Positions 1,019 to 25,409 of a stretch of DNA of 34,486 nucleotides are shown here, piece by piece. The notes under the pieces were generated by a model. The model ran no database searches. It saw only the letters and a list, made by a program, of their open reading frames with translations, and had not been told where the DNA came from. The stretch comes from [Eubacterium] yurii subsp. margaretiae ATCC 43715 (GTDB lineage: Bacteria > Bacillota > Clostridia > Peptostreptococcales > Filifactoraceae), in NCBI GenBank assembly GCA_000146855.1, contig GL405246.1:581244-615729 (forward strand). The letters run 5' to 3'. The position numbers were made by a program, and so were the translations under genes. The first letter of the stretch is position 1, and every line of letters starts with the position of its first letter.

Positions 1019-1022
1019 TGGA

Positions 1023-8310: not shown

Positions 8311-9117
8311 ATGAAAAAGAGAGAGTTTTTAGACTTACTCAGATTTTACCTCAAAGACATGCCAAAGACTGTGACGGAGGATATAATCTCGGACTATGAA
8401 GAGCATTTTTCCATTGCAACGGAAAAAGGAAAAAGCGAAGAAGAGATATGCAGAGAGTTAGGTTCTCCTGAGGCAATAGCAAAAGAATATATAAGCGGAG
8501 AAAAGATTCACCTTGTGCCTGTAGACATAGATGAAAATATGAGAGACAATAATAGCGCTAATACAGGAGATGACTCAAACTACAAATCAAATTATGAGAG
8601 GAGTAGAGCTAAGAAGTCTTCATCTAAGGATGAGGATAATAAGAAAACACTTAATATTCTGTTAATAGTTTTGGTAATTATCGGAATATTTTCTATTTTA
8701 CCTCCGATATTTGGATTTGGATTTGGTTTAATCGGTTTAGTGATAGGTATTGTAACCTTGATACTTAGTATTATATTTGCTATATTTTGGGGAGTAATAA
8801 GTCTGATTTTAGGCATATTTAAATTTGGCATAGGACTTATTATGAGCGTCTTGGGTGCAATTTTTTCCTTCCTGCCTTTTAGTTTTCATCATGGCTGGGG
8901 TTCTAATATATTTATGGATGTCAATCCCTTTACAGGTATATTTGCCGGCTTTACAACCATTGTATTCGGATTAGTTATGATACTTATAGGTATATTAGTT
9001 GTAAAATTTTTATTTAAGACAGTTAAAGATATTTTCATAACTATAAAATGGAAGAAAAGGAGGAGCAGTGATGAAAAAGGCCCTACAAATTCTGATAATA
9101 CTGATGTTGATAGGTAG
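8311..9117 (+). CDS. DUF1700 (HAAS) membrane protein
   Basis: This 268-residue protein starts MKKREFLDLLRFYLKDMP and has the N-terminal helical HAAS/DUF1700 domain (about 1-65) with ISDYEEHF and ICRELGSPEAIAKEYI. A polar linker (about 70-108) follows, then four long hydrophobic segments (about 108-128, 132-152, 155-182, 205-238) rich in Gly, Ile and Phe, and a basic cytoplasmic tail. The family is the membrane partner in PadR-linked envelope-stress operons and is thought to pass a membrane signal or bind the downstream DUF4097 protein. GGAGG site, 49 nt after padR. Its last codons overlap the start of the next gene, indicating translational coupling. Confidence 0.9.
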   Translation: MKKREFLDLLRFYLKDMPKTVTEDIISDYEEHFSIATEKGKSEEEICRELGSPEAIAKEYISGEKIHLVPVDIDENMRDNNSANTGDDSNYKSNYERSRAKKSSSKDEDNKKTLNILLIVLVIIGIFSILPPIFGFGFGLIGLVIGIVTLILSIIFAIFWGVISLILGIFKFGIGLIMSVLGAIFSFLPFSFHHGWGSNIFMDVNPFTGIFAGFTTIVFGLVMILIGILVVKFLFKTVKDIFITIKWKKRRSSDEKGPTNSDNTDVDR

Positions 9118-9985
9118 TATATGTACTGCAATTTCATTTTTCGTATTTGATTCTAGGAAAGCAAAAAATTTCTTAAATAAGTATAGTAATTCAGTTACAA
9201 CACATTCACATAAGGAGAATTTAAAAAAAGACAGCGTAAACTCTAAAAAATATTATGATGATGACTTTTCAGATTTTGTAAATAAAAAAGCAAATGAGTT
9301 TGCAGATGGCTTGACTGAGTCGATACTTGAAGGGGTATCAGATGGTTTGACGGGTGATTTTGCCGATGAGCTATTGATGGATAAGGATTTTTCTGATGGC
9401 AAGATATTTGGGAAATACAAAAAGTTGTTAAAAACTGAAAAGTTAGGGGAGTTTAATCAGCTACATATTAAATCTCCATACTTATTCTCAAAGGTTGTAA
9501 AATCAGATGAATACAAGATAGAATTTTATTCACAAAATGATAATAAGGACATAGTCAATCATATTGATATTAGAGAAGATGGACAAAAATGCGAAATTTC
9601 ATGTTCTGAAAGATTTAACAAGGACATACCTTGTATGATTATACACACACCGAATCCGCAAAATTTGAAGCTTGATTTGGATATTAAGGACGGTTTTTTC
9701 TCTTCTCAAGAGACTTTTAAGTCAGCAAAGATAGAGATGGATAACGGAGTATTGAGTCTTGTCGGAAAAGAGTCATACAACATGGATATAGAGATGGATG
9801 ACGGTATAATCAAGATGAAGTTTGATAACTGCGATGCAAGGGTGCAGGTGGAAGGGAATAGTGGTTTTACAGATATTTTAGGGAAAAAACATGTATTGGA
9901 AGATACAAAATTTGAAGAGAAGATTAAAAATGCGAGGGATAGTATCATAGTTAAGATAGATTCAGGAATTTTAAGTGTTAAGTAA
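9071..9985 (+). CDS. DUF4097 (toastrack) membrane-anchored protein
   Basis: This 304-residue protein has one N-terminal transmembrane helix (ALQILIILMLIGSICTAI) and an extracytoplasmic region. A charged segment (about 35-130) leads to repeated short beta strands such as LKLDLDIKDG, KIEMDNGVLSLVG and DIEMDDGIIKMKF, the beta-helical pattern of DUF4097/toastrack domains. ATG at 9071 is preferred to the in-frame GTG at 9068 because AGGAG sits 5-6 nt upstream. It overlaps the DUF1700 gene by 47 nt in another frame. The family role is as the surface sensor or effector of the PadR-HAAS-toastrack system; the precise function is unknown. The Lys/Asp-rich insert (35-130) is unusual in length but not clearly a separate domain. 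Confidence 0.82.
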   Translation: MKKALQILIILMLIGSICTAISFFVFDSRKAKNFLNKYSNSVTTHSHKENLKKDSVNSKKYYDDDFSDFVNKKANEFADGLTESILEGVSDGLTGDFADELLMDKDFSDGKIFGKYKKLLKTEKLGEFNQLHIKSPYLFSKVVKSDEYKIEFYSQNDNKDIVNHIDIREDGQKCEISCSERFNKDIPCMIIHTPNPQNLKLDLDIKDGFFSSQETFKSAKIEMDNGVLSLVGKESYNMDIEMDDGIIKMKFDNCDARVQVEGNSGFTDILGKKHVLEDTKFEEKIKNARDSIIVKIDSGILSVK

Positions 9986-10133: not shown

Positions 10134-10179
10134 AAACTGCAGCTCCAAGCTTATATTTAAGTTTAGAGCTGCAGTTTTT
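10134..10179. terminator. bidirectional terminator between the DUF4097 and fixX genes
   Basis: A perfect 12-bp stem AAACTGCAGCTC/GAGCTGCAGTTT carries T-rich tails on both sides (TTTTTATTT rightwards, TTTAATTTTT leftwards). It stops both the PadR operon and the leftward lut-fix operon, ending 3 bp from the fixX stop codon. Confidence 0.85.
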
Positions 10180-10181
10180 AT

Positions 10182-10466
10182 TTAGCCTTGTTTAAAAGTA
10201 ACGCCTACTTCTCCTATAGGATGCTTCCAAGATTTAACTATCTTTCCATGTGAAATCACTCTACAGGTTCCACATTCCAAACATCCCAAGTGACTGAAGC
10301 TTAATTTTCCGTCAATAAACTTATAACATTCTGCCGGACAGGCCAATAATAGTTTTCTGATTTCTGTTTCATCAGTATAGTCAGTATCTACATCTATATG
10401 AGGATTTTCCTCATCAACGTGAAAAACATCTAAAGCGAGCTTATCTTCTATTTTCATCTTCTTCAT
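10182..10466 (-). CDS. fixX: FixX-type ferredoxin-like protein
   Basis: This 94-residue iron-sulfur protein is the usual electron partner of FixC. The Cys pattern is CPAECYKF (Cys43, Cys47) and HLGCLECGTCRV (Cys62, 65, 68), the FixX form of a ferredoxin with enough ligands for one [4Fe-4S] cluster. The ending KHPIGEVGVTFKQG is also typical (compare the PxxGFGVxYRFG tails of FixX). It begins 2 nt after fixC with a GGAGG site. It is last in the seven-gene operon, right before the terminator. Expected role: relay electrons between FixC flavin and the quinone pool. No fixA/fixB (electron-transfer flavoprotein) genes are in the operon, so the donor must be encoded elsewhere. Confidence 0.92.
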   Translation of the reverse strand: MKKMKIEDKLALDVFHVDEENPHIDVDTDYTDETEIRKLLLACPAECYKFIDGKLSFSHLGCLECGTCRVISHGKIVKSWKHPIGEVGVTFKQG

Positions 10467-10468
10467 AA

Positions 10469-11764
10469 TTAAAACGCCTCCAATACTGTAGTAACAAATT
10501 CTACAAGTTTTGCTGCTGTTGTATGTTCTGCCACAGATTGCATAACATAGCCAATAAAACTTTGTCCTTGCTTTCCATCTACTGTAAATGCTTTTGTAGC
10601 AATGTCATCAACCATTGCAGGAAGACCTTCAAAAATTTCCCTTCTTCCAAGCAAAGTAGGGAAGCCCTTGTATTGAGTTAAGTCTTTCATGATAAAGCTG
10701 TTATCTATTAGTTTTTTATAGTAAGATAGGGTATCAGCACTAAAATCTCCAATTTCACGAGCTCTGATGACTGTTTCTGCAGCAAGTCTCCCGGATTCAA
10801 TAGCAAAATCCATTCCCCTAACTGTAAAGCCTAAGTTAATACAAAAACCTGCAGCATCTCCTGTTACCAAGACTCCATCCCTGTATAATTCAGGAACCAT
10901 ATGAAGTCCTTCTTCAGGAACTAAGTGACCTGAATATTCTATAGAAGTTCCTCCCTCTAAATAAGGAGCAATTGAAGGATGTTCTTTAAATCTATCTAAT
11001 AATTGATTGATTGATAAGTCACTATGCCCTATATCACTTAAAGTAGCAACAACTCCGACAGAAACACTATCTTTGTTTGTATAGATTAATCCGCCGCCGA
11101 ATCCTCCTACTGTAGGATCTCCACATGAAAGCCAAGCTACTCCCTCTCCGTTATTTACAGCAAAACGTTGATTAATTACATCTTCGCCTAATTTTATAAC
11201 TTCCTTTGCTCCAACGGCTACTTGATGAGGTTCCAATTCCTTTTTCATACCTATGCCTTGCGCCAAAAGAGAGTTTACTCCATCTGCAAGAATTACTACA
11301 TCTGCATATAATTCTTCACCTGTTGCAGATATTCCTATTACTTTACCATCTTCTACTATGAGTTCATCCACCAAAATCCCGGGGATGATTTCTGCGCCTG
11401 CTTCTTCCGCCTTTGAAGCCAACCATCTGTCAAATGTAGAACGAAGCACTGTATAAGAAGCATTTTCATTATTTGAACTTAACTTTTTAGAGCCAAAGCC
11501 TACATCAAAAGCGCTATCTTCACCCATTAAAGAAATTTTTTCTCTTGTTATCTTTCTTTCTATTGGAGCTTCCTGCGCAAAGTTTGGAATAATTTTTTCA
11601 AGACTGTGTCCATAAAGGCGTCCACCAGTCATATTTTTTGCTCCACAAAAATCTCCTCTTTCTACTAAAAGAACTTCAAGTCCGGCATTTGCAAGAACGA
11701 TAGCTGCAGAGCAACCTGCCAAACCGCCACCAACGATAATGGCATCAAATTTTTCTTCGCTCAT
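10469..11764 (-). CDS. fixC: FixC-type FAD-dependent quinone oxidoreductase
   Basis: This 431-residue flavoprotein of the FixC / electron-transfer-flavoprotein:quinone oxidoreductase group has the Rossmann motif DAIIVGGGLAGCSAA (residues 7-21) and FixC hallmarks AKNMTGGRLYGHSLE, YTVLRSTFDRWLASKAEEA, VILADGVNSLLA, and GVLVTGDAAGFCINLGFTV followed by RGMD. The start at 11764 has AGGAG 8 nt upstream; the frame opens earlier, but that extension overlaps the preceding methyltransferase and lacks homology. It sits 23 nt after ubiE and 2 nt before fixX. Known family role: pass electrons from ETF to a quinone. Because FixC is related to geranylgeranyl reductases and here follows prenyl-quinone genes, an alternative is reduction of the isoprenoid side chain using FixX, but overall similarity favours FixC proper. 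Confidence 0.92.
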   Translation of the reverse strand: MSEEKFDAIIVGGGLAGCSAAIVLANAGLEVLLVERGDFCGAKNMTGGRLYGHSLEKIIPNFAQEAPIERKITREKISLMGEDSAFDVGFGSKKLSSNNENASYTVLRSTFDRWLASKAEEAGAEIIPGILVDELIVEDGKVIGISATGEELYADVVILADGVNSLLAQGIGMKKELEPHQVAVGAKEVIKLGEDVINQRFAVNNGEGVAWLSCGDPTVGGFGGGLIYTNKDSVSVGVVATLSDIGHSDLSINQLLDRFKEHPSIAPYLEGGTSIEYSGHLVPEEGLHMVPELYRDGVLVTGDAAGFCINLGFTVRGMDFAIESGRLAAETVIRAREIGDFSADTLSYYKKLIDNSFIMKDLTQYKGFPTLLGRREIFEGLPAMVDDIATKAFTVDGKQGQSFIGYVMQSVAEHTTAAKLVEFVTTVLEAF

Positions 11765-11787
11765 ATCATTTTCTCCTATATTTTCAT

Positions 11788-12483
11788 CTACTTTTTCCCT
11801 TGAATCATAACACAAACTCCGTACATTTTGCTAAAATGTTTAATTTCTTTCAACCCGAGTTTCTCATACAATAAAACTAATTCTTTCTTTTTAAGAAATT
11901 CTTGTGTTGATTCATATAACCAAACATATTCTTTATAATACTTTTTTCCGCCACCAAACAGTGGCATAATATACTTAAAGTATATCTTATAAAAAGGTTG
12001 AATCCATAAACAATCCGGAACAAAAGAATCTAAGCAATATATACAGCCATCTTTTTTAACCACTCTTATCATTTCTTTTAGGACTTTTTCATAATCTACC
12101 GTATTTCTCAAGCCAAAAGAAATAGCAACAGCTGAAAAACTACAATCTTCAAATGGCAAACATAATGCGTCTGCTTCTTTCCAGACAATATTTAAATCTT
12201 TACTTTTTTTTATAGCTTCATTTAGCATTGCAGAAGAAAAATCCACTCCGCTAATATTTAAGTCCTTTCTTTTCTCTGCCAACCAAATAGAAATATCCCC
12301 TGTACCACAGCATACATCTAAAAAACTACTGTCTTTAGGAATTTCTTCAGCGATTTTGTCTACTAAATCCTGTTTCCAGCTTTTTTGCAATCCAAGACTA
12401 ATCCTGTTATTTGCCTTATCATATTGAGTATGTATATTTTCAAATACCTCATGGACAAATTCTGATTTTTGCTCCTTATTCAT
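11788..12483 (-). CDS. ubiE: UbiE/MenG-type quinone C-methyltransferase
   Basis: This 231-residue SAM-dependent methyltransferase is expected to convert demethylmenaquinone to menaquinone (or an equivalent step). Motif I is SFLDVCCGTGDIS (about 53-65). Motif II is VDFSSAMLNEA. SFGLRNTVDYEKVLKEM is the UbiE signature region, and EYVWLYESTQEFLKKKEL corresponds to the second UbiE signature; the family's usual FP in that stretch is changed to FL. Length is normal. It lies 2 nt after the prenyltransferase gene and shortly before fixC. Lying behind the polyprenyl synthase and the MenA-like gene, it completes the last three steps of menaquinone assembly, while the genes making the naphthoate head group are not in the window. 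Confidence 0.88.
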   Translation of the reverse strand: MNKEQKSEFVHEVFENIHTQYDKANNRISLGLQKSWKQDLVDKIAEEIPKDSSFLDVCCGTGDISIWLAEKRKDLNISGVDFSSAMLNEAIKKSKDLNIVWKEADALCLPFEDCSFSAVAISFGLRNTVDYEKVLKEMIRVVKKDGCIYCLDSFVPDCLWIQPFYKIYFKYIMPLFGGGKKYYKEYVWLYESTQEFLKKKELVLLYEKLGLKEIKHFSKMYGVCVMIQGKK

Positions 12484-12485
12484 AC

Positions 12486-13406
12486 TTACACCATTTCCGC
12501 AATTATTTTTGTTAAGATAGCTATAAAATAAGCTATATTTACAATTATATTTGCTTTTACAATATTTTTCATCTGCTCTATTCTTTTTGAAGCTAATAAT
12601 TCAGATTGCATAAGTAATTTGAAACATTTATATCCCAATACTATAAGTGCAGGAGTGATACATCCAACCATTCCCAATAGGTAAACAGATAGTCCGCTTA
12701 TTATTAATAACCATAGTACAACTAAGATGTGATAGAGATTTTTTATATTTTTTCTTCCAAGAATAACTGCTAAGGTCTGTCTATTAGCATGTGTATCTTT
12801 TTCAATATCACATCCGTTATTAGTCATCATAATCAGTGAAATTCCCATCATTAACGGAAATGCGTACAACAAAATTTCACTATGGAATTTCCCATCAGAA
12901 ACTGCTGCCACTCCAAGAGGAATTAGAATCCCCATTACAAAACCTGAAACAATCTCTCCTATAGGAAGATAGGAAATCGGAAGAGGTCCTCCCGAATACA
13001 AGAGGATAACCATCCCTCCTATACATCCTATTCCTAAGGGTAAAAATCCACTATCTTTACAGGCAATTATTCCCAGTACAGCCCCTAAGATTAGATAGAT
13101 GATACCAAGAAGAAGAACATCTTTGGGATTAATGGAATTATAGATTAAAACTGCGTCACTTTCTTCCACATTATCTTCTTTTTTGTCGTTACCCTTGATA
13201 AAATCTACATAATCGTTTAAAGTGTTGACAGAGGATTGCATAAATATACAAGTTAAAACTAATAATATACTTTTCCAAAAACTTAAGGGATAATTTTCCA
13301 ATTTACAAAACAGTATTCCAAAAAGAACCGGTCCAATTGATGCAATCCAAGTATGTGGAGCCGCTAACTGGAGAGCTAATTTTGCTGTTAGATGATTATT
13401 TTTCAT
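12486..13406 (-). CDS. menA: MenA-like UbiA-family prenyltransferase
   Basis: This 306-residue membrane enzyme is predicted to attach a polyprenyl chain to 1,4-dihydroxy-2-naphthoate. It has about eight to nine transmembrane helices and both aspartate-rich sites: NTLNDYVDFIKGNDKKED (Asp65, Asp68, Asp74) and NGCDIEKDTHANRQTLAV (Asp200, Asp204). The segments PLPISYLPIGEIVSGF and MGILIPLG resemble MenA rather than UbiA or haem O synthase. It overlaps the upstream polyprenyl synthase by 4 nt. Compared with Listeria, it corresponds to either MenA or the extracellular-electron-transfer paralogue DmkA. The naphthoate precursor must come from genes elsewhere or from scavenging. The substrate assignment is inference; the family is clear. 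Confidence 0.85.
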   Translation of the reverse strand: MKNNHLTAKLALQLAAPHTWIASIGPVLFGILFCKLENYPLSFWKSILLVLTCIFMQSSVNTLNDYVDFIKGNDKKEDNVEESDAVLIYNSINPKDVLLLGIIYLILGAVLGIIACKDSGFLPLGIGCIGGMVILLYSGGPLPISYLPIGEIVSGFVMGILIPLGVAAVSDGKFHSEILLYAFPLMMGISLIMMTNNGCDIEKDTHANRQTLAVILGRKNIKNLYHILVVLWLLIISGLSVYLLGMVGCITPALIVLGYKCFKLLMQSELLASKRIEQMKNIVKANIIVNIAYFIAILTKIIAEMV

Positions 13407-14383
13407 TTCTTTACTTCCAAATCATGCAACATTTTTTCTAAATAAATAGTTATTTTTGAATTTTGCTCCAAGTCTTTTATCAACTGTCTGTTAATATCAG
13501 AAAGATATTTAATCTTTTCATAACTTGCTTCTATTCCGCCAAATTGAACTATAACACTTTGTAATTGGCGTATTTCTTCAAGTGATAGATTTTCTTCCCT
13601 ATTTTTCTTCATTATAGGCAGTAAAGCCTCTCTGCCCCTTGAATTTTTTAATGTCATAATCACCGGAAAAGTATAGATTCCATTTTGAAAATCCTTATGC
13701 GTTTCCTTCCCTAAGTCCTTTGAGTTGGAAGTGAAATCCAAAATGTCATCCTTTAATTGAAACATCAAACCTAAGTTTTTTACAAATAATTCTAATTTTT
13801 TAATATTTTCTTCTGAACAACCGGCCTCTTTGGCACCTATATGACAGGCTACCTGAAAAAGTGCTGCTGTCTTATTTTCAATAATCTCAAAATATTTTTT
13901 TTCACTTATATCTTCTCTATAACGATTAAGATCTTGCTCTATCTCACCTATGCACATATATTCCACAGTCTTTGATAAAACTGAAACAGCTTCATTCAAA
14001 TTCTCTTCAGTCCCATAGTGAAAGATTCGAGATATTAGGAAATCTCCGGCAAATACCGCCGCATCTTTCCCATATTTCCCTTGTAGAGATGTCTTTCCTC
14101 TCCTGTAAGGAGAATTATCTACTATGTCGTCGTGTATCAGAGAAGCAAGGTGTGTCAGCTCCACCATAGCAGCTAATTTACAAATTTTTTCTCTATTATT
14201 TTTCCAATTTGAACCTAAAAATGCACATAACAGCAAAAGTTTCGGGCGAAGCATCTTTCCTGATAAATTAAGTGCATCATCTAAAACTACACCAACTTGA
14301 CTTTCTTTAATCGGATAGTCCGCAATTAAGTGGATGTAATATTTTACCTGTTCCATGCACTCTTTCAGTGATATTTCTATCAA
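13403..14383 (-). CDS. long-chain polyprenyl diphosphate synthase
   Basis: This 326-residue trans-isoprenyl diphosphate synthase has the first Asp-rich motif in LASLIHDDIVDNSPYRRG (Asp85, 86, 89) and the second in LKDDILDF (Asp212, 213, 216); GKMLRPKLLLL and KTAALFQVACHIGA are also typical. Small residues sit 4-5 positions before the first motif (Ala80, Ser81) where short-chain enzymes carry aromatics, so a long product such as hepta- or octaprenyl diphosphate is likely. The start is a TTG at 14383, directly after the lut stop codon, with AGGGG about 9 nt upstream; an ATG at 14356 is the alternative. It overlaps the next gene by 4 nt. The role is to supply the tail for MenA. It resembles HepT/DmkB. 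Confidence 0.86.
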   Translation of the reverse strand: MIEISLKECMEQVKYYIHLIADYPIKESQVGVVLDDALNLSGKMLRPKLLLLCAFLGSNWKNNREKICKLAAMVELTHLASLIHDDIVDNSPYRRGKTSLQGKYGKDAAVFAGDFLISRIFHYGTEENLNEAVSVLSKTVEYMCIGEIEQDLNRYREDISEKKYFEIIENKTAALFQVACHIGAKEAGCSEENIKKLELFVKNLGLMFQLKDDILDFTSNSKDLGKETHKDFQNGIYTFPVIMTLKNSRGREALLPIMKKNREENLSLEEIRQLQSVIVQFGGIEASYEKIKYLSDINRQLIKDLEQNSKITIYLEKMLHDLEVKK

Positions 14384-16543
14384 TTAAATTAGTCCCCTTT
14401 TCTCTGCAATTATTTCCGCAGTATGTTTTACTTTTATGTCATCAAGTCCTCTGGCATCCAATCCACCTTTGATTTGCATCAAACATCCGGGACAGTCTAA
14501 AGCAACTACATCTGCTCCTGATTCTTTGATATTTTGGATTTTGTTTTCCAAAATATGAGAAGAAATATCAGGACATAGTAAACTGTAAGAACCACCAAAA
14601 CCACAGCAGTTATCACATTCGTTCATTTCTACAAATTCAACACCTTTGGTATTTTTCAATAGCTCTCTTTGTTCTTGTGATACTCCCAAGCTTCTCTTCA
14701 AGTGGCAAGAATCGTGGTAAGTAACTTTTACAGCTTTTCCGTCGCCTTCTTGAGATACTCCTTCAAGATCATAGAACAATTTACAAAAGTCAAAAGCCTT
14801 GTCTGCTAATTCTTTTGCTCTCTTGTACATCGGTGTTCCTTCTTCAAAGAAAGTCGGATACAGACGCAATTGATGTGTACAAGAAGGACAGGCACTTACG
14901 ATGTAATCGTATTTTTCAGCTTCCATTCCTTCGATATTAATTTCAGCTTCTTTTCTGGCATTTTCCACATCACCTATATTTGATGCAGGACATCCGCAAC
15001 AAGCTTGTCCAAGTGGCATTTCCACCTTATATCCTATAGAGTTCATATCTGCAACTACTGCTCTTGCAAGATCAGTATAAACAAAGTCTAATAGACAGCC
15101 TGCAAAGATAGCTACTGTTCCCTTAGGATCTTTAACATCTTGTTTTATAGTATGGAAGAAATCCCTCAAAGGCACTTGCGCTATTGCAGGGAAACTCTTA
15201 CCCTTTGTCATTCCTGATAAGAACATCGGTAGATGTCGAATCATAGGTTCACCCTTTGTAAACACTCCTTGTGCAACAGAAGCAATACGAAGCATAGAGT
15301 GGAATAGTTTACGATCTGAAACAGCGTCTAATGCAAATTTCTTCAAAGCATCCGGCTTTTCTTGCATATTTTTTTCACGCAGTCTCATAATCATGTCAGA
15401 GATATGTAATCCCCCACCACAGACTTCATTACATCTTCCACATTGTAGACAGATATTTTGAATTTCTGAAGCTCTTTCTTCATCTACCAAGAAGTGAGTT
15501 AGCATTGTTCCTATTCCGCCTGTGTAAACATTAGAACCATAAACGTGTCCGCCTACCAAAGCAAACGCAGGACAGACGTCAAGACAGGCTCCGCATCTGA
15601 TACAATTAAAGATTTCACGGAAATCAGGTTCTGCTAATATTTCTCTTCTACCAGGATCATCTAAGATAACACAGTAGAAATCTTTTTTACACTTTTCATC
15701 AGTTTCTTTGTCCTTTGTTACTTCACATGCTCCTGTGTACATAGAAAGATAGGTTGTAATTCTTTGGGCAGTTCCGTTTCTTGGTAAGGCTTTAAAGATA
15801 TGTCGGGCGTCGGACAAAGATTTTACAAATTTTTCAATTCCAAAGACATATAGGTGAATTGGAGGTAGAGTTCCAACCATACGTCCATTTCCTTCATTTG
15901 TCATTGTAAATACTGTTCCTGTTTCTGCAACAGCTATATTTGCTCCTGAAACACCCATATCAGCATGAGTAAATTTATCTCTCATTACTCTTCTGGCAGT
16001 TCTTACTTCTTCCAATATAACCGGATTATTTTTTTCTTTTGTATAATCAGTAAAAAGGTCAGCAACTTGTTCCTTATTTAAGTGCAGTGCAGGCATAACC
16101 ATATGCACAGGAGTATTTCCTTCCAAAGAGATTATAAATTCTCCAAGGTCTGTTTCTTGAACCAAAACGCCGTCATCTCCAAGCACATGATTCATCTTAA
16201 TTTCTTCTGATGCCATAGACTTAGATTTTACAATAGTCTTAACGCCTTTTTCCTTTACCAGTTGACGAATCCATTCCATTGCATCTTCTGTACTTTTAGC
16301 ATGATATACATGTCCGCCTCTTGCTTCACAATTAGTTGTGAACTCAGCTATCATTTCATCTATATGCTCTGCTGCATAAGTCTTCACTTCTGCAATCTTT
16401 TCTCTTGTATTTTGAAAATCCACGCCTTCATAAGATTTTTCTCTTCTGGCAGGGTATGTCTTACAAAAATTACCAAGTGTTCTTCCAAGAGTAGCATTCT
16501 CTAACGCAGAGCTTATCTCTTTTTTTAAATCTTCACTAGCCAT
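14384..16543 (-). CDS. LutB-LutA fusion: lactate-utilisation iron-sulfur protein
   Basis: This 719-residue fusion covers two subunits of the LutABC (LldEFG) L-lactate oxidation complex. Residues about 45-270 form the LUD domain of LutB with AETGTVFTMTNEGNGRM. Two ferredoxin-type Cys clusters follow: CIRCGACLDVCP (Cys314, 317, 320, 324) and CLQCGRCNEVC (Cys365, 368, 371, 375). The C-terminal half is LutA/HdrD-like, with two CCG domains: Cys483 plus CCGCPAS (515-516) and CPSC, then Cys613 plus CDNCCGFGG (643-647) and CPGC. Similar fusions of about 717 residues are known in Desulfovibrio lactate operons. It oxidises lactate to pyruvate and passes electrons to an undetermined acceptor, probably the quinone made by the next genes (inference). 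AGGAGG site, 56 nt after lutC. Confidence 0.9.
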   Translation of the reverse strand: MASEDLKKEISSALENATLGRTLGNFCKTYPARREKSYEGVDFQNTREKIAEVKTYAAEHIDEMIAEFTTNCEARGGHVYHAKSTEDAMEWIRQLVKEKGVKTIVKSKSMASEEIKMNHVLGDDGVLVQETDLGEFIISLEGNTPVHMVMPALHLNKEQVADLFTDYTKEKNNPVILEEVRTARRVMRDKFTHADMGVSGANIAVAETGTVFTMTNEGNGRMVGTLPPIHLYVFGIEKFVKSLSDARHIFKALPRNGTAQRITTYLSMYTGACEVTKDKETDEKCKKDFYCVILDDPGRREILAEPDFREIFNCIRCGACLDVCPAFALVGGHVYGSNVYTGGIGTMLTHFLVDEERASEIQNICLQCGRCNEVCGGGLHISDMIMRLREKNMQEKPDALKKFALDAVSDRKLFHSMLRIASVAQGVFTKGEPMIRHLPMFLSGMTKGKSFPAIAQVPLRDFFHTIKQDVKDPKGTVAIFAGCLLDFVYTDLARAVVADMNSIGYKVEMPLGQACCGCPASNIGDVENARKEAEINIEGMEAEKYDYIVSACPSCTHQLRLYPTFFEEGTPMYKRAKELADKAFDFCKLFYDLEGVSQEGDGKAVKVTYHDSCHLKRSLGVSQEQRELLKNTKGVEFVEMNECDNCCGFGGSYSLLCPDISSHILENKIQNIKESGADVVALDCPGCLMQIKGGLDARGLDDIKVKHTAEIIAEKRGLI

Positions 16544-16599
16544 CTTTCCTCCTATTATCCTTAAATTCTAAAATTAAAATTCTAAAATTTTAATTATGC

Positions 16600-17151
16600 C
16601 TATTCATCATCTACAACTATCGTAGATACTTCAAGCGGTCCATGAACACCTACAGTTCCTACGCATTCGATATCAGCTGTACGGCTTGGGCCTGTAATGA
16701 AACCGACATAGTTGGGAATTGTTTTCATTTCACATAGAATATCAAACATATCATCGTAAGTTGGAACAATAGTAGAACCTTTTACTACGCCAATATAATA
16801 TTCAGACATGGTAGCTACCATTCTTCCATCTGCATCATCTTGTTCCTGCACAATAGTACCAAGCTCAGCAATACCATGTTGAGCCTCTGATAATCCGCCC
16901 TTATCAGTCTCTGCATGAAGGCGAATATGGTCTGTATGTACAGTAATTCCGTTTTGTTGAAGAGTAGAAACAACTCCTGCTTCCTTTAACAAAGGAGATT
17001 CAAACAAAGATATTGATTCAATCTCATGCTCTTTAAATAATTGAGTAACTGCGTTTGCAAGTTCTGCTTTTGAAGCACGAAAACAGGTTCCATTAACGCT
17101 TTCCAAGTTCTTTTTGAAGCTTTCAAACATCTCATCTGAAATACTTTTCAT
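16600..17151 (-). CDS. lutC: LutC/LldG-type LUD-domain protein
   Basis: This 183-residue protein consists of a single LUD domain (formerly DUF162), the third component of the LutABC lactate oxidation complex. Recognisable segments are ISLFESPLLKEAGVVSTL, AQHGIAELGTIVQEQ, the Ser-less DDADGRMVATMSEYYIGV, and the C-terminal GPSRTADIECVGTVGVHGP, which closely matches LutC's GPSRTADIE motif. It has an AAGGAGATG site and is first in the seven-gene operon, 63 nt downstream of the consensus promoter. It pairs with the fused LutB-LutA protein encoded just after it. Catalytic details of the complex are unsettled in the family. Confidence 0.92.
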   Translation of the reverse strand: MKSISDEMFESFKKNLESVNGTCFRASKAELANAVTQLFKEHEIESISLFESPLLKEAGVVSTLQQNGITVHTDHIRLHAETDKGGLSEAQHGIAELGTIVQEQDDADGRMVATMSEYYIGVVKGSTIVPTYDDMFDILCEMKTIPNYVGFITGPSRTADIECVGTVGVHGPLEVSTIVVDDE

Positions 17152-17213
17152 TTAATCATCTCCTTACATATAGTTAAAAAAATAATTTAATACTCAATTT
17201 ACTACCGAATATA

Positions 17214-17242
17214 ATTATAGAATAATTGTTATTTGTTGTCAA
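17214..17242 (-). promoter_or_regulatory. perfect consensus promoter of the lut-quinone-fix operon
   Basis: On the minus strand: -35 TTGACA (17237-17242), 17-bp spacer, -10 TATAAT (17214-17219). Both hexamers are perfect. Such a strong promoter usually implies a repressor, and a palindrome overlaps the -35 (next entry). Confidence 0.85.
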
Positions 17243-17245: not shown

Positions 17246-17303
17246 AAAAACATATATATCATAATTATTTATAAAAAATTTTAAAAATCATAGATATTGC
17301 TTA

Positions 17304-17332
17304 TTGTTTTGGGATATGCTACAATTTATAAT
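17304..17332 (+). promoter_or_regulatory. promoter of the arsA-like pair
   Basis: -35 TTGTTT (17304-17309), 17 bp, -10 TATAAT (17327-17332). An overlapping alternative is TTGCTT (17297-17302), 17 bp, TACAAT (17320-17325). Either gives a very short leader to the AAAGGAG site at 17342. Confidence 0.6.
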
Positions 17333-17356
17333 GATTTTTATAAAGGAGCTAAGTCT

Positions 17357-18547
17357 ATGAATAGAATCATTATTTTTACAGGAAAAGGTGGAGTCGGCAA
17401 ATCAAGTGTTGCAGCAGCTCATGCCCTATCTTCTGCAAAAAAAGGTAATAAAACACTATTGGTCAGTGCAGATACTGCACATAATTTAGGGGATATTTTT
17501 AAGGTGCAAATCGGTTCAAAAATTACAAAAATCCTTGAAAACTTAGATGCCTTAGAGTTAGATTCAGATGTAGTAAAGAAGGAAATGTTTCCAGATGTAA
17601 AAAATACCATGTTAAATCTGATGGGAAAAAGTGGAATCAGTCTAAATAATATAAATGAAAATTTTTCTTTACCCGGTTTTGAAAATCTTTTTTCACTTTT
17701 AAAAATCAAAGAAATCTATGAAACTAAGCAATATGACCATATTATTGTGGATTGTGCGCCAACAGGAGAAACTCTATCCCTCTTGAAACTTCCAGAGCTT
17801 CTCGGATGGTATATGGAAAATTTTTTCCCGGTTGGGAAAAAAATAGTCCGTGTTCTTTCTCCTGTTTCAAAATTAGCATATAAGGTCACCCTTCCAAGTG
17901 CTAAGACTATGGATACAATAGAGCTTATCCACCAAAATCTTGTGCAGTTGCAGGAACTTTTAAAAAATAATGAAGTTTGCAGTGTAAGATTAGTATGTAT
18001 ACCTGAAAAAATGATAGTGGAAGAAACAAAGAGAAACTTTATGTACTTAAACTTATATAAATATCAACTTGATGCAGTTTTTATCAATCGTATTATAACA
18101 GATGAAGTGAAGAATCCCTTTATGCAAAATTGGAAAAAAATTCAATCGAAGTATATCAAGGAATTGGAGGAAGTTTTTTATGACATACCTATTGTAAGAA
18201 TTCCTTGGTACCAAAAAGAGATTATTGGAGAAGCATCTTTGGACTTAGTCTGTAATACAATAGAAAATCTTCCGGAATTATTTTCTGTAAAAAAAGTCAC
18301 TCAAAATGAAGAGTATCTTCCTTGTGAAGATGGCTATATACTAAAAATCCAACTGCCTTTTGTTAAAGAAGATGGATTGAATATTCATCATAATGAAATG
18401 GATATAAATATTAAAATAAATAATGTGAATCGTTGTATTCCTCTTCCGAATATTTTGAGAAAAAGTCAAATTATTGACACAAAGTTAGAAAATGGAAGTT
18501 TATGTATTCATTTTCAAGTGGAAAAAAATAAGGAGGAAATGTCTTGA
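17357..18547 (+). CDS. ArsA-family ATPase with HSP20-like C-terminal domain (first of pair)
   Basis: This 396-residue deviant-Walker P-loop ATPase belongs to the ArsA/Get3 family. The ATP site is FTGKGGVGKSSVAAA (residues 7-21, signature Lys10). Switch I is SADTAHNLGDIF; switch II is VDCAPTGETLSLLKLPE. The C-terminal about 80 residues (GYILKIQLPFVKEDGL through CIPLPNIL) are the HSP20-like beta domain found in many bacterial ArsA homologues. The start at 17357 has AAAGGAG nearby; the frame extends upstream to 17297 without support. It overlaps the second arsA-like gene by 4 nt and diverges from the lut-quinone operon. No arsB, arsD, arsR or arsC is present, so arsenite pumping is unlikely. A role in membrane-protein targeting or complex assembly is a guess. 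Confidence 0.88.
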   Translation: MNRIIIFTGKGGVGKSSVAAAHALSSAKKGNKTLLVSADTAHNLGDIFKVQIGSKITKILENLDALELDSDVVKKEMFPDVKNTMLNLMGKSGISLNNINENFSLPGFENLFSLLKIKEIYETKQYDHIIVDCAPTGETLSLLKLPELLGWYMENFFPVGKKIVRVLSPVSKLAYKVTLPSAKTMDTIELIHQNLVQLQELLKNNEVCSVRLVCIPEKMIVEETKRNFMYLNLYKYQLDAVFINRIITDEVKNPFMQNWKKIQSKYIKELEEVFYDIPIVRIPWYQKEIIGEASLDLVCNTIENLPELFSVKKVTQNEEYLPCEDGYILKIQLPFVKEDGLNIHHNEMDINIKINNVNRCIPLPNILRKSQIIDTKLENGSLCIHFQVEKNKEEMS

Positions 18548-19710
18548 GAATTTTGATTTATACAGGAAAAGGCGGAGTTGGAAAGACAAGTATAGCAACG
18601 GCAACAGCACTTTTTTTAGCAAATTCAGGTCAAAAGGTAATACTTTTGAGTACAGATCAGGCTCATAGCTTAGGAGATGTCTTAGATAAAAAATTAAACG
18701 GTGAAATAACTCAGGTATCTCAAAACTTAGATGTCTTAGAAATAGATGCAATAGTGGAAAGTCAAAGAGTATGGAAAAATTTGCAAGATTACTTAAAGCA
18801 AATCATTTCTGAAAAATCAAACAATGGAATAGAAATAGAGGAAGCATTATTATTTCCCGGATTGGAAGAAGTATTCTCCTTGCTTAAGATTTTGGATGTA
18901 TATGAGAATGATAAATATGATGTTATGATTATAGATTGTGCGCCAACCGGTCAATCTCTTTCAATGCTTACATATTCTGAAAAGTTAAATATGTTGGCAG
19001 ATACTGTCTTACCGATGGTTCAAAGTATAAATTCTATTTTCGGCTCTGCAATATCGAAAAAAACTTCTGTTCCAAAGCCAAGAGATGTAGTCTTTGAAGA
19101 GTTTAAAAATTTAGCAAAAAGACTAAGCTCACTCTATGATATATTTCATAATAGGAACACTACCAGTATTAGAATAGTTACAACTCCTGAGCAAATTGTC
19201 TTGGAAGAAGCCCGCCGAAACTATACTTGGCTACAGCTTTATGATTTCAATGTGGATGCTGTCTATATGAACAGACTGTATCCGAAGGAAGTCATGGAAG
19301 GTTATTTTGAAGGTTGGGAAGATATTCAAAATGATAATATTCATCTTGCAGAAGAAAGTTTTTATCAACAGAAACTTTTTAAGTTGGAATTGCAGTCTGA
19401 AGAAATTCATGGAAAAGATAGTCTTGAAAAAATAGGGAAGCTTCTCTATAAGGATGTAAATCCGGCAGAAATCTTCTGTCAGACAGAGGCTTTTAAAATG
19501 GAAGATATCAATGGAACTCGTATACTTATCATTAATCTACCCTTTGCACAAGTTGAAAATATTTCCGTTACTAAGGAAAAATATGATATTATAATTTCTC
19601 TAATAAATGAAACAAGGCGTTTTCACCTACCGGATAAACTACGAACAAGAAATATCAGTAGCTATTCCTTTGAAAATGGAGAATTAAGAATAAGTATGGA
19701 TTACGAATAA
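18544..19710 (+). CDS. ArsA-family ATPase with HSP20-like C-terminal domain (second of pair)
   Basis: This 388-residue ArsA/Get3-family ATPase starts with TTG at 18544, overlapping the previous stop codon, with AAGGAGG 8 nt upstream. The ATP site is YTGKGGVGKTSIATA (residues 6-20), switch I STDQAHSLGDVL, and switch II IIDCAPTGQSLSML. The C-terminal HSP20-like domain contains RILIINLPFAQVENIS and FHLPDKLRTRNIS. It is clearly homologous to its neighbour along the whole length but well diverged, so the two probably form an obligate heterodimer, as the A1 and A2 halves do in fused ArsA (inference). No Get3-type CxxC zinc site is evident. Function unknown; context suggests a link with the divergent quinone/lactate operon. 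Confidence 0.87.
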   Translation: MRILIYTGKGGVGKTSIATATALFLANSGQKVILLSTDQAHSLGDVLDKKLNGEITQVSQNLDVLEIDAIVESQRVWKNLQDYLKQIISEKSNNGIEIEEALLFPGLEEVFSLLKILDVYENDKYDVMIIDCAPTGQSLSMLTYSEKLNMLADTVLPMVQSINSIFGSAISKKTSVPKPRDVVFEEFKNLAKRLSSLYDIFHNRNTTSIRIVTTPEQIVLEEARRNYTWLQLYDFNVDAVYMNRLYPKEVMEGYFEGWEDIQNDNIHLAEESFYQQKLFKLELQSEEIHGKDSLEKIGKLLYKDVNPAEIFCQTEAFKMEDINGTRILIINLPFAQVENISVTKEKYDIIISLINETRRFHLPDKLRTRNISSYSFENGELRISMDYE

Positions 19711-22508: not shown

Positions 22509-22573
22509 AAAGTCGTTATCTACTTAATGATAAATGTCAAATGACATAAATCAAGTACATAACGGCTTTTTTT
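22509..22573 (+). terminator. terminator of the AIM24 gene, embedded in the opposing gene
   Basis: AAAGTCGTTAT (22509-22519) plus ACTT pairs with AAGT plus ATAACGGCTTT (22553-22569), followed by TTTT. The stem covers the last 17 codons of the convergent radical SAM-HAD gene. Confidence 0.7.
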
Positions 22574-24142
22574 ATGGAGTTCTTCCTGATAAATAGGGCT
22601 TACACTATGTTTTATATTTTCAAAAAGCTCCTCATCTTGAATATTATCGCTGATTATAAGTATTTTATCATACTTGATATTATTTACTTCGCAAATATAT
22701 TTAATGCCGGAAAGTTTTGAAGATTCTTGATTTTGAAAAAGCGTAGTATAATTGTAAACTCTCTTTTTAATATTTGGGAGGTCAATATTTTTTGCAATCT
22801 TGGAAGGAAGAGCAATTCTTAATAGCTTTTCTCCAAGTATATCTTTTCTTAGCTTGTATAATAGATTTATATTTTTACCTTTATCTATATCATGACTTAT
22901 ATATTTAATATTTTCATTGATTTCAGCATTGCTATTTAGTTTTAAATTGTCTTGATAAATATTTAAAATATCATCTTTTTTATTTGTATTATTAATAATT
23001 TCAGAAAGTTTTTGTTCAAAGTATTTTATATTTGTACTATCATCCAAGGCTATGATTTTTTCGGTATTTTTTTCAAAATCTACCGTATAACATCCGTCAG
23101 AAAATACTCCGCCTTTGAAAAAGTAAAAATTTTTGCCAAGCAGTTTTTTAGCAGAGTCTATATTCCTTGAACTTGCAATGTATAAGTCTGTCTTTTTTGA
23201 AAGATTTTGAAGTATCTTTGAAAGATTATTTATCAACTTGCCGTCTTTTCCTGTCATAACACCATCTATATCAACAAATATTGCATCAAATTTTCTCTTT
23301 TGTGCTATGCGAAAAATTATATTTTCTCCAAAAAATCTATCCAAAATATTATTTCCAAAGTTGGAATAGCCGAGGTAACAGTCACATATTTTATGATTGT
23401 TACAAAGGGAGTCTATGGCTCTTTTTTTCTTGAAAAAACAGGAAGACGAATATTTTTGAACATCTACATATATTTTATCGTAAGATTGACAGGTAGAAAA
23501 ATTGTCACCTCTAACTTGTGTGTAATCTACTCTCTTTGTGTAAAACTCATAGGCAAACATAGGATCTATCTTTGAAAGAGAGGCTATTTCATCGTTGCTG
23601 AATCTATTTTTTATTTTATCCATTGCATTTATCCAAAGATAGATGTCTGCATTTAGATTTTCTCTCAACTTTCTTATTTCTTCATAGTTTTTTTTGTTTG
23701 CCACTATACCGCAGGATATGGAAATAAGTTCTGATAAGCTATTTGCCTTGTTACAAAAATTTTCTATGTCAGCATATTCACTATGGAAGGTAGCCCAGAG
23801 CATTATCTTTGAATAATCAGCATGATTTTTAGAAAGTGTATTAATTAATTTATCTGTATCTACTGAGAGATTGCTTTGAATTCCAATTTTGCGTACATTT
23901 TCAAGAGTAGATATCCTTGCCATAAATTCCTGATATAGAGGGTGAATCAGAGCCTCTCCGTAAGGAGTTATCATTATATTTACATTTTCATCCAAATTTT
24001 TCACATAGACAAAGAGTTTTTCCAGATTTTCACTTTCTTTTTGTATTTTCTCTTTGCTTAGACTCTTTTTGGCAAAGGGACAGTAGGAGCAGGAATAGTT
24101 GCAAAAGTCAATTTCTCCTCTAAAAAAGATATTCTTAGTCAT
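22520..24142 (-). CDS. STM4011-like radical SAM protein fused to a HAD phosphatase domain
   Basis: This 540-residue fusion begins with a radical SAM domain: FFRGEIDFCNYSCSYCPFAK has the CxxxCxxC motif (Cys14, 18, 21). A second Cys group (Cys218, 235, 247, 253, 255, ending KICDCYLGYSNFG) looks like an auxiliary cluster and matches the C..CYIGY feature I associate with STM4011-family proteins. From about 284 a HAD hydrolase domain follows: FDAIFVDIDGVMTG (Asp291, Asp293), YIASSR (motif II) and ILIISDNIQDEELF (acidic motif IV), Cof-like in order. STM4011 itself is only about 290 residues, so the HAD part is an addition. Its start overlaps the STM4012-like gene by 8 nt. The substrate is unknown; the fusion implies a phosphorylated intermediate. 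Low-GC, Asn/Lys-rich codons. Confidence 0.78.
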   Translation of the reverse strand: MTKNIFFRGEIDFCNYSCSYCPFAKKSLSKEKIQKESENLEKLFVYVKNLDENVNIMITPYGEALIHPLYQEFMARISTLENVRKIGIQSNLSVDTDKLINTLSKNHADYSKIMLWATFHSEYADIENFCNKANSLSELISISCGIVANKKNYEEIRKLRENLNADIYLWINAMDKIKNRFSNDEIASLSKIDPMFAYEFYTKRVDYTQVRGDNFSTCQSYDKIYVDVQKYSSSCFFKKKRAIDSLCNNHKICDCYLGYSNFGNNILDRFFGENIIFRIAQKRKFDAIFVDIDGVMTGKDGKLINNLSKILQNLSKKTDLYIASSRNIDSAKKLLGKNFYFFKGGVFSDGCYTVDFEKNTEKIIALDDSTNIKYFEQKLSEIINNTNKKDDILNIYQDNLKLNSNAEINENIKYISHDIDKGKNINLLYKLRKDILGEKLLRIALPSKIAKNIDLPNIKKRVYNYTTLFQNQESSKLSGIKYICEVNNIKYDKILIISDNIQDEELFENIKHSVSPIYQEELHKKSRYVLDLCHLTFIIK

Positions 24143-25409
24143 AGTTATTCATCCTCTTTTGTATAGTTTGCGACATAAACATAGGACCTATCATATCGGA
24201 AAGACTCATGCCCAGAGGAGTAAGACTTATTATGTCATCATGTCTTTGTGCATAGCCTTCTTTTAGAAGATTAGCTATTATGGAAAAATCACTTTCCAAA
24301 TCAGAGGCAAAGTGTCTGTAATAGTCGGATATTGACAGTCCGCTTATATAGAGCAGATTTTTTATGACATAGCGTCTTTTCATCTCGTCATCGTCCAAAA
24401 TATAGTAGGAAATGTCGCTTGTAAAGTCATCTTTTTTCAGATACTTCTCATATTCGCTCTCACAAGATTTTTTCTCAGAGACGTATTTTTCACAAAAGTG
24501 AAGATTTTCAAAATAAGACCTGCCACCACATCCAAGTGAAAGTACATCTTCAAAACCGCAGTTTGCATTTATCTTACTGTTTTTTGAGAAGCTTCTCATG
24601 GAAAGTTGTTCATAGCCCTTTGATAAGAGATAGTCTCGCCCAATTTGATAGAGCTTATACTGTTTTTGAACATCTATGTCAAACTTATCATAAAGTCTGG
24701 CATTTACCTGTTTATAAAGTGGATATAGGAATATCTCGCTTGGATTATATTTTAATGCCTCATCTATAGAAAAAATGAGAGTTTCTTCATTTTGCTTAGG
24801 TATGCCGTAGATGAGGTCAATATTTGTATCAAAGTCGTAAGTTTTTATAATCTCAAGTGCCTTGTATACATCAGCTGATTTTTCAGCACGTTGAATTGTC
24901 AGAAGCTCACTGTCAATAAAAGACTGGACTCCTATGCTAAGCCTCTTAAGGGAAAAATCCTTAAGTAAGTTCAGTTTTTCTACGCTTATTTGTCTTGGTG
25001 AGCCTTCTATTATGGAATATGCCTTTTGCAAGTCCATGTTAAAGTCATCTCTTGCAAGCTCAAATAAGGATGATAAGTCCTTTGGACTAAGTATCATCGG
25101 AGTACCCCCACCAAGGGTAAAAGAGTTGAAATTCGTATGTTCAAAGTTTATAAGACTTCTCATTTGTTTGGAATGTCTTTTGACAGCCTTAATATATTCT
25201 CCGTAGTCGTCACTTCTTACATTAGTGATGGAAAAAAGGTTGCAATATCCGCATTTTGATTTGCAAAATGGCACATGGATATATAAGGACATTTCCTTGC
25301 CTATAAATCTATCTTTAAAGCTTGAAAGCTCGAGTTTTTCTGTAAAGTGATAAGCCCTCTTATGAGGGTAACTGTACATATATTGTGTATAAATCTTATC
25401 GTAATCCAT
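24135..25409 (-). CDS. STM4012-like (HemN/HemW-type) radical SAM protein
   Basis: This 424-residue radical SAM protein of the coproporphyrinogen-oxidase-like group has SLYIHVPFCKSKCGYCNLFS carrying CxxxCxxC (Cys49, 53, 56) and the extra Cys/Asn-Leu-Phe of this group. The SAM-binding LGGGTPMIL is at 99-107, then EGSPRQIS, LSIGVQSF and NIDLIYGIP. The N-terminal YMYSYPHKRAYH is characteristic of the STM4012 family rather than HemW. A C-terminal winged-helix-like HemN domain (about 335-415) ends in GYAQRHDDIISLTPLG. It is first in a two-gene operon with the STM4011-like fusion, as in Salmonella STM4011-STM4015, a cluster of unknown function. No STM4013-STM4015 homologue follows here. HemW (haem chaperone) is the alternative call. 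Confidence 0.82.
   Translation of the reverse strand: MDYDKIYTQYMYSYPHKRAYHFTEKLELSSFKDRFIGKEMSLYIHVPFCKSKCGYCNLFSITNVRSDDYGEYIKAVKRHSKQMRSLINFEHTNFNSFTLGGGTPMILSPKDLSSLFELARDDFNMDLQKAYSIIEGSPRQISVEKLNLLKDFSLKRLSIGVQSFIDSELLTIQRAEKSADVYKALEIIKTYDFDTNIDLIYGIPKQNEETLIFSIDEALKYNPSEIFLYPLYKQVNARLYDKFDIDVQKQYKLYQIGRDYLLSKGYEQLSMRSFSKNSKINANCGFEDVLSLGCGGRSYFENLHFCEKYVSEKKSCESEYEKYLKKDDFTSDISYYILDDDEMKRRYVIKNLLYISGLSISDYYRHFASDLESDFSIIANLLKEGYAQRHDDIISLTPLGMSLSDMIGPMFMSQTIQKRMNNYD

Follow-up and report, generated by a model that had tools for sequence, protein, structure and literature searches.

A conserved seven-gene operon of fermenting bacteria that may link L-lactate oxidation to electron-transferring flavoprotein through a quinone

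We analysed a stretch of 34,486 nucleotides from [Eubacterium] yurii subsp. margaretiae ATCC 43715 (GenBank assembly GCA_000146855.1, contig GL405246.1, positions 581,244 to 615,729; hereafter the window), and describe in it an operon of seven genes, lutC-ldhH-pps-menA-ubiE-fixC-fixX, for lactate oxidation, the last steps of quinone making, and FixCX. Its parts belong to known families, the combination is conserved across distant fermenting bacteria and, as the original prediction had supposed, no description of it was found in the open-access literature, most subscription papers lying outside the search. Judged from sequence, the operon would be a self-contained L-lactate:quinone:electron-transferring flavoprotein (ETF) module, probably mobile between genomes, in which electrons most likely pass from quinol through FixCX and ETF to an enoyl-CoA; this is the reading we favour, with some reserve.

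The seven open reading frames (ORFs) lie on the minus strand at 10182–17151, with intergenic gaps from lutC to fixX of 56, 0, −4, 2, 23 and 2 nt, between a promoter and a terminator:

17242–17214, minus strand: consensus sigma-70 type promoter, TTGACA-17-TATAAT, matching at 12/12 positions
16600–17151, minus strand: lutC, LdhG-like LUD-domain small subunit of a lactate oxidation complex (LUD_dom PF02589)
14384–16543, minus strand: ldhH, L-lactate dehydrogenase (quinone) large subunit (NF045670 and Pfam domains)
13403–14383, minus strand: pps, polyprenyl diphosphate synthase for the quinone tail, with a TTG start (PF00348)
12486–13406, minus strand: menA-like UbiA-family polyprenyltransferase (PF01040)
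11788–12483, minus strand: ubiE/menG methyltransferase (TIGR01934)
10469–11764, minus strand: fixC, ETF:quinone oxidoreductase-like flavoprotein (PRK10015, PF21162)
10182–10466, minus strand: fixX, ferredoxin-like protein (sub-threshold match to PRK15449)
10134–10177, either strand: hairpin terminator with a 12-bp perfect stem, about −26 kcal/mol, probably bidirectional

The promoter is the sole 12/12 match among 39 promoter-like sites between 9900 and 17500, where the mean expected number of such matches is 0.06 (100 first-order Markov windows). The terminator hairpin stands between fixX and a convergent gene at 9068–9985; it was not in the list of the automated scan, which allowed loops of 3–8 only. 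For fixC, the listed ORF has a TTG at 11815, and an ATG with AGGAG before it is found at 11764. The compact operon and the perfect consensus promoter of the original prediction were both borne out, with all genes on one strand, gaps of −4 to 56 nt and a strong terminator.

Family matches support the assignments to differing degrees. The ldhH product scores 1008.8 bits against a cut-off of 800 for LdhH (NF045670) and consists of a LUD domain, 4Fe-4S and two CCG stretches by Pfam; what had been called a lutB-lutA fusion is indeed one ORF, but of a catalogued protein type. For LutC, the LUD domain PF02589 reaches 94.4 bits (cut-off 22.6), and UbiE passes TIGR01934 (255 bits against 158). FixC exceeds the cut-offs of the PRK10015 subfamily (509 bits against 466) and of ETFQO_UQ-bd, PF21162 (28.9 against 27.7), and reaches 464.6 against 610 for PRK10157, the model named FixC. 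FixX aligns to PRK15449 over residues 4–94 of 94 at 75.5 bits, below the cut-off of 166, and has no Pfam match. The polyprenyl synthase is clear at the level of Pfam (PF00348, 214.6 bits against 27) and over no NCBIfam cut-off, the best being heptaprenyl diphosphate synthase component II (180.7 against 456.6); its homology search named one organism, Treponema sp., at 51%. MenA has the UbiA domain PF01040 (102.9 bits against 34.2) and retains both Asp-containing motifs, NDYVDFIKGND and NNGCDIEKD, and its sole solved relative found was UBIAD1. An altered head-group specificity, read from the residue before the second Asp motif (Cys or Ser in the operon MenAs), was considered and dropped, Cys occurring there in distant clostridial relatives as well.

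The operon recurs in other genomes. We assembled 16 loci including the window, 13 through a genome scan with LdhH and two through a MenA search of the Frisingicoccus family, and annotated them after removal of overlapping weaker matches. Gene order and strand are kept in all 15 other loci as far as the contigs reach, and so the seven genes do co-occur as a conserved set: all are visible in 13 of the 16, the contigs of L004, L008 and L013 end inside the operon with the order agreeing up to their ends, and lutC adjoins ldhH in every locus. The records of the LdhH-found loci are named Eubacterium yurii, Frisingicoccus, Clostridium, Clostridiaceae, Lachnospiraceae, Oscillospiraceae, Lachnoclostridium and Megasphaera. 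LdhH of the window shares 98% identity with its counterpart in E. yurii ATCC 43714; for MenA, an identical protein is recorded under Peptostreptococcaceae bacterium AS15, and homologues at 79% and 57% identity carry the label Fusobacterium.

Searching with MenA gave a partly independent test of order conservation. Among 397 Frisingicoccus-family genomes, three had a MenA at least 53% identical to the query, one of them being the query's own genome, and all three carry the operon together with the ATPase pair described below. Neither ldhH nor fixCX accompanied four weaker matches (33–42%) within the sequence retrieved around them, of which L183 begins at a contig end. Among 391 sampled genomes of the E. 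yurii class, 50 matched at E 1e-15, and since only E. yurii itself exceeded 34% identity (the other 49 lay at 24–34%), the operon appears rare in that class; 25 of these 49 distant MenAs were compared, over four motif stretches only, with matches shorter than 150 residues left out. This scattered distribution, with its constant order, suggests that the operon has moved between genomes as a unit. An ISL3-family transposase (L001, 16604–17773) directly follows fixX of E. yurii, with no such ORF at that place in the window.

Separately, two Frisingicoccus-family genomes hold a second pps/menA/ubiE set (L181 1–11372; L182 9253–19901). In L181 its neighbours are CCG (HdrB-like), FAD/FeS (HdrA-like), FlpD/MvhD-like, DHODB-like, molybdopterin-binding and 4Fe-4S proteins, and the L182 set looks similar by sequence; ldhH, fixCX and head-group genes were not found in these stretches. 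The genes for the tail and its attachment and methylation thus occur in more than one setting, a lactate operon and an Hdr/molybdoenzyme-type cluster.

The operon encodes the tail, attachment and methylation steps, and the known routes to the quinone ring were not found in relatives. Pathway genes were sought in 13 operon-bearing related genomes, E. yurii being the closest, and in 14 controls. MenD was over cut-off in none of the 13 (best 73 of 244 bits) and MenB in none (best 172 of 343 bits), each being found in 7 of the 14 controls; MqnA/D gave no match whatever in the 13 and passed the cut-off in 4 of the 14 controls. Sub-threshold matches to MenD in all 13 and to MenB in 10 of them are probably other thiamine-diphosphate enzymes and enoyl-CoA hydratases, respectively. 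The absence of head-group genes, previously claimed for the window, therefore extends to these genomes and, because MenD, MenB and MqnA/D genes were not found, the quinone ring is probably imported. There is precedent: gut bacteria that keep only the last menaquinone steps and respond to 1,4-dihydroxy-2-naphthoate (DHNA) have been described (PMC5738691), and oral Porphyromonas pasteri is reported to possess just the gene pair for converting DHNA to menaquinone (PMC9704088).

EtfA is present in all 13 operon genomes, which together with the family matches upholds the proposal that lactate- and ETF-linked modules share one operon with the terminal quinone steps. At some loci the link to ETF is physical. 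An acyl-CoA dehydrogenase gene stands directly before lutC in 4 of the 16 loci (L004, L005, L006 and L008), preceded in L005, L006 and L008 by etfB-etfA and a lactate permease gene (lctP); the L004 stretch begins, inside its contig, at the acyl-CoA dehydrogenase. L006 and L008 also carry lctD, whose product is 64–65% identical to a Frisingicoccus lactate dehydrogenase homologue encoded beside an acyl-CoA dehydrogenase gene and etfBA of its own, and at both loci the whole set of lctP, lctD, etfBA and acyl-CoA dehydrogenase genes lies upstream of the operon; none of this set is in the window. No fixAB lies beside fixCX in the window, and across the 16 loci etfBA is upstream of lutC only in the three named. 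The L005 acyl-CoA dehydrogenase, on the same strand as lutC, has as its best NCBIfam model acryloyl-CoA reductase (531 bits, below the cut-off of 640), is 74–75% identical to the copies in L004, L006 and L008, and shares 68% identity with a Frisingicoccus protein resembling butyryl-CoA dehydrogenase, so that its substrate may be of either kind.

Lct genes also occur away from the operon. E. yurii has a separate lctP-lctD-acyl-CoA dehydrogenase-etfB-etfA cluster (L188, G001:C24, about 218.9–225.1 kb) and both Frisingicoccus genomes have lctD-acyl-CoA dehydrogenase-etfB-etfA. A search for LctD in the 13 genomes found five at 65% identity or more, the query's own included, four Megasphaera at 36–40%, and four with none at E 1e-60. 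Single ORFs in E. yurii (L148 6749–8689, 646 aa) and Megasphaera (L149 7135–9039, 634 aa) match acyl-CoA dehydrogenase in their N-terminal part and EtfA further on in the same frame.

In the scheme that we infer for the identity of the quinone, the source of its head group and the direction of FixCX, LutC-LdhH, by family assignment, would oxidize L-lactate to pyruvate and pass the electrons to a (demethyl)menaquinone pool. Its head group would be an imported naphthoquinone, given the missing head-group genes most likely DHNA from neighbouring bacteria; the polyprenyl synthase should make the tail, MenA attach it and UbiE methylate the ring, as is known of their families. FixCX would join the quinone pool to EtfAB, electrons most likely flowing from quinol through FixCX and ETF to an enoyl-CoA (acryloyl- or crotonyl-CoA) reductase. 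In this way L-lactate would reach the same ETF pool to which LctD gives D-lactate direct access, and the quinone would serve as a fermentation shuttle; in hosts with flavin-based, fumarate-reductase-like or molybdoenzyme-like candidate outlets the pool could drain there too. The potential of the lactate/pyruvate couple is about −190 mV. Values given for menaquinone, crotonyl-CoA and acrylyl-CoA are −70, −10 and +70 mV, respectively (PMC5861303). With these potentials, flow from lactate through menaquinone to crotonyl- or acrylyl-CoA would be downhill. The original prediction of a quinone pool driven by lactate and ETF is largely supported, by the conserved operon and by EtfA in all 13 genomes, except that input through FixCX is only one of two directions: the acyl-CoA dehydrogenase gene before the operon in four of the 16 loci, and etfBA in three, fit flow from quinol to ETF at least as well.

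Several observations weigh against this reading, and the alternatives draw on them. At 12 of the 16 loci no etf or acyl-CoA dehydrogenase gene is adjacent (less than 1 kb is available upstream in L007). Identities of lutC, ldhH, fixC and fixX correlate among themselves at r 0.80–0.95 and those of pps, menA and ubiE at r 0.77–0.86, compared to only r 0.43–0.77 between the two blocks (without a shuffle control): the quinone genes evolve faster than, or partly apart from, lutC, ldhH and fixCX. These correlations used copies covered to at least 80% (fixX and fixC 13/16, ubiE 14/16, arsA1 and arsA2 of the ATPase pair 10/16), and the arsA2 values are unreliable, L006 being cut there and probably matched to a paralogue. 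Co-variation that is weaker between the two groups than within them, and the 12 loci without adjacent etf or acyl-CoA dehydrogenase genes, would both suit a chance, or purely regulatory, grouping of separate housekeeping genes. We consider such a grouping highly improbable: all 15 other loci, under various record names, keep the order, which the MenA query recovered as well, and in genomes that gave no head-group genes there is no housekeeping pathway in sight to which MenA and UbiE could belong. Other points against our reading concern sampling and the ring: the LdhH scan covers close relatives only, too narrow a base to show how often LdhH occurs without quinone genes; several of the 13 genomes are metagenome-assembled genomes (MAGs) whose completeness is not stated; and MenA, being below every NCBIfam MenA cut-off (NF004749, 147.8 against 277 bits; TIGR00751, 67 against 102), possibly acts on another aromatic head group.

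The type of ETF is mixed as well. L005 EtfB has a DGDTAQVG stretch, whose DGDT occurs in all five solved chains displayed, no canonical chain being among them, and which we assume to be the glycine criterion of PMC12630350; the EtfBs of L006 and L008 lack DGDT, as do the lct copies of Frisingicoccus and E. yurii. The L005 protein, keeping beside the operon the motif of solved bifurcating-type chains, would suit a confurcating module in which lactate-derived quinol and reduced ferredoxin, through FixCX and a bifurcating-type EtfAB run in reverse, yield NADH, much as an acetogen lactate dehydrogenase-EtfAB confurcates electrons of lactate and ferredoxin to NAD (PMC5861303). With ETFs devoid of the motif in L006 and L008, and quinol at about −70 mV making NAD reduction slightly uphill even with ferredoxin by our own estimate, we think this improbable.

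The more serious challenge lies in the direction of FixCX. Characterised FixABCX reduces quinone, the opposite of what we propose, as in Azotobacter with ubiquinone (PMC5861303). The operon could thus be a respiratory input module in which LutC-LdhH and EtfAB-FixCX (fed by NADH or acyl-CoA, possibly bifurcating to ferredoxin) both reduce quinone and an external or respiratory acceptor oxidizes the quinol. The solved chain nearest to FixC, FixC 7koe_C, which we take to be from a bifurcating complex, fits this alternative, and so do candidate outlets, the first of them in the window itself:

191–1075, minus strand: FMN_bind lipoprotein-like protein with a Ser/Lys/Glu-rich linker, candidate extracytosolic electron carrier (PF04205, 48.3 bits)
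1023–1745, minus strand: ferric-reductase-like transmembrane protein (PF01794, 34.2 bits)
2041–3171, plus strand: ApbE flavinyltransferase (PF02424, 310.7 bits)

This set, which looks like a flavin-based (extracellular) electron outlet, was overlooked in the original prediction, where no obvious respiratory chain was seen. E. yurii (G001:C40, L150 489–8200) has homologues of ApbE (89%), of the ferric-reductase-like protein (92%) and of the FMN_bind protein, and after these an SLH protein of 1526 aa that contains several FMN_bind domains; no homologues of the flavin parts were found in the other 15 operon loci fetched. In a Frisingicoccus MAG (G002) a 29% ferric-reductase-like relative stands directly before an FMN_bind domain (L192 4082–5020), a pair that led us to lower slightly the odds of ETF as the sink and to raise those of the respiratory alternative. 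FrdB was over cut-off in two of the 13 genomes, G006 and G010, where the adjoining ORFs (L189/L190) resemble, by eye, a flavoprotein and a membrane subunit, and reached 68 bits against a cut-off of 88 in G004. G008 has, on one strand (L146 1305–9140), a DMSO-reductase-like molybdoenzyme, FeS and DsrP-like proteins, then etfB, etfA and an acyl-CoA dehydrogenase gene. FMN_bind also occurs in long frames of 597 aa (G007) and 1514 aa (G008). Candidate respiratory quinol outlets are thereby present in at least five of the 13 genomes.

These outlets, nevertheless, are not shared. Cytochrome bd was found in none of the 13 operon genomes, compared to 10 of the 14 controls, and no outlet among those sought occurs in every one of the 13, nitrate, sulfur and other reductases lying outside the genome-wide searches. 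FMN_bind matches number one or two per genome in 11 of the 13, none in G009 and nine in E. yurii, and half of those in the 11 genomes (7 of 14) are in frames of 189–222 aa, which by size would be RnfG-like. Extracellular electron transfer, tried as the common outlet, was set aside as not general across the operon genomes. Moreover, the genes that flank the operon in some loci encode ETF and acyl-CoA dehydrogenase rather than reductases. Because no sought outlet is common to the 13 genomes, we prefer ETF as the shared link and hold the respiratory module to be possible, though on balance the less likely of the two. Of the partners sought elsewhere in the genomes following the original prediction, EtfA is thus general, MenD, MenB and MqnA/D pass their cut-offs in none of the 13 relatives, and terminal reductases appear as candidates in some.

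The conserved neighbourhood includes two further genes, absent from the original prediction:

17297–18547, plus strand: Get3/ArsA-family ATPase 1 with a C-terminal HSP20-like domain, likely ATG at 17357 (PF02374, 272.5 bits; PF17886, 72.3 bits)
18544–19710, plus strand: Get3/ArsA-family ATPase 2 with a C-terminal HSP20-like domain (PF02374, 246.9 bits; PF17886, 59.8 bits)

In each of the 10 loci outside Megasphaera whose sequence extends beyond fixX, the pair adjoins the operon. It follows fixX immediately and on the same strand in L002, L003, L005, L006 (where the contig end cuts the second gene), L007, L009 and L179, stands divergently ahead of lutC in the window and L001, and precedes lutC on the operon strand in L180. 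It was not found in the Megasphaera loci L010 and L012 within 5.5 kb downstream; in L011 only 0.5 kb remains beyond fixX, and L013 breaks off within the operon. Both ATPases combine a Get3/ArsA fold with an alpha-crystallin-type domain at the C-terminus and lack CXXC, the architecture of Get3d (PMC10248533), of which no entry was among the solved chains listed for them. That paper ties Get3d to photosynthesis, whereas here a tandem pair stands beside a quinone operon in anaerobic fermenters; it also reports binding of tail-anchored proteins and, in a hydrophobic chamber of Get3d, density resembling lipid (PMC10248533). We speculate that the pair is linked to quinone or membrane-protein handling. 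Going further, and only tentatively, we propose that fermenters without a shared respiratory chain finish a neighbour-derived menaquinone that would carry electrons of L-lactate via FixCX to acryloyl- or crotonyl-CoA, replacing the lactate racemase of lct clusters, with the Get3d-like pair as a dedicated targeting or lipid-handling factor.

Elsewhere in the window, a pair of neighbouring genes at 22520–25409 encodes radical-SAM proteins, one of which carries a fused HAD-type hydrolase domain.

The usual view is that anaerobes forming butyrate or propionate do without quinones. Coupling of a menaquinone type had at one time been envisaged for the reduction of crotonyl-CoA, and Clostridium kluyveri is described as lacking both a gene for an ETF:quinone oxidoreductase and the genes for making quinones (PMC5861303). 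The operon supplies both kinds of gene to bacteria with ETF and, in part, lct genes, which suggests a possible use of quinone by fermenters that have no ordinary respiratory chain. If our reading is true, it would provide a route from L-lactate towards short-chain fatty acids, and the L-lactate trait, or lactate disproportionation, would depend on DHNA cross-fed by other microbes. In bacteria without L-iLDHs, absence of the racemase is reported to have gone with no use of L-lactate (PMC8914356); the operon would be another answer to L-lactate use without a racemase.

The operon can be compared to several known systems. Like the quinone-linked L-lactate dehydrogenases LdhH and LutABC, it has LdhH, over the NCBIfam cut-off, with an adjacent LUD small subunit. 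Those systems feed an existing respiratory quinone pool, whereas the operon here contains the last quinone-making genes. With Listeria-type flavin-based extracellular electron transfer it shares a polyprenyl synthase and a MenA-like enzyme and, in the window, ApbE and an FMN_bind lipoprotein-like protein; in contrast, the flavin parts of the window are 7–9 kb from the operon, and Ndh2 was not found among the 30 window ORFs scanned. FixC and FixX appear to be of the FixABCX/EtfABCX type, FixC passing one of two models and FixX scoring below its cut-off, but the operon lacks fixAB, with etfBA upstream instead in L005, L006 and L008; in Fusibacter paucivorans, fixC-fixX is reported downstream of etfBA (PMC9751042). 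The lct clusters of Anaerobutyricum and Coprococcus catus and the Ldh/ETF/Bcd system of Fusobacterium nucleatum likewise tie lactate oxidation to EtfAB and an acyl-CoA dehydrogenase, and the genes upstream of the operon in L006 and L008 correspond to the lct cluster of lactate-using gut bacteria (PMC8914356). Lactate oxidation in the known lct clusters runs through a D-lactate dehydrogenase and ETF, often along with a lactate racemase (PMC8914356; PMC12630350), and in F. nucleatum transfer from D-lactate dehydrogenase through canonical ETF to butyryl-CoA dehydrogenase has been measured (PMC12630350). The operon differs in using L-lactate via LutC-LdhH and, as we infer, quinone and FixCX; the consulted text of PMC8914356 makes no mention of quinone, FixC, LUD, lutC, ubiE or prenyl. 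Finally, as in DHNA salvage by gut and oral quinone auxotrophs, a menA-like gene and ubiE are kept while head-group genes are missing (PMC5738691; PMC9704088), but the dependent gut strains have anaerobic terminal reductases (PMC5738691), whereas here the genes sit in an operon with those for lactate oxidation and FixCX.

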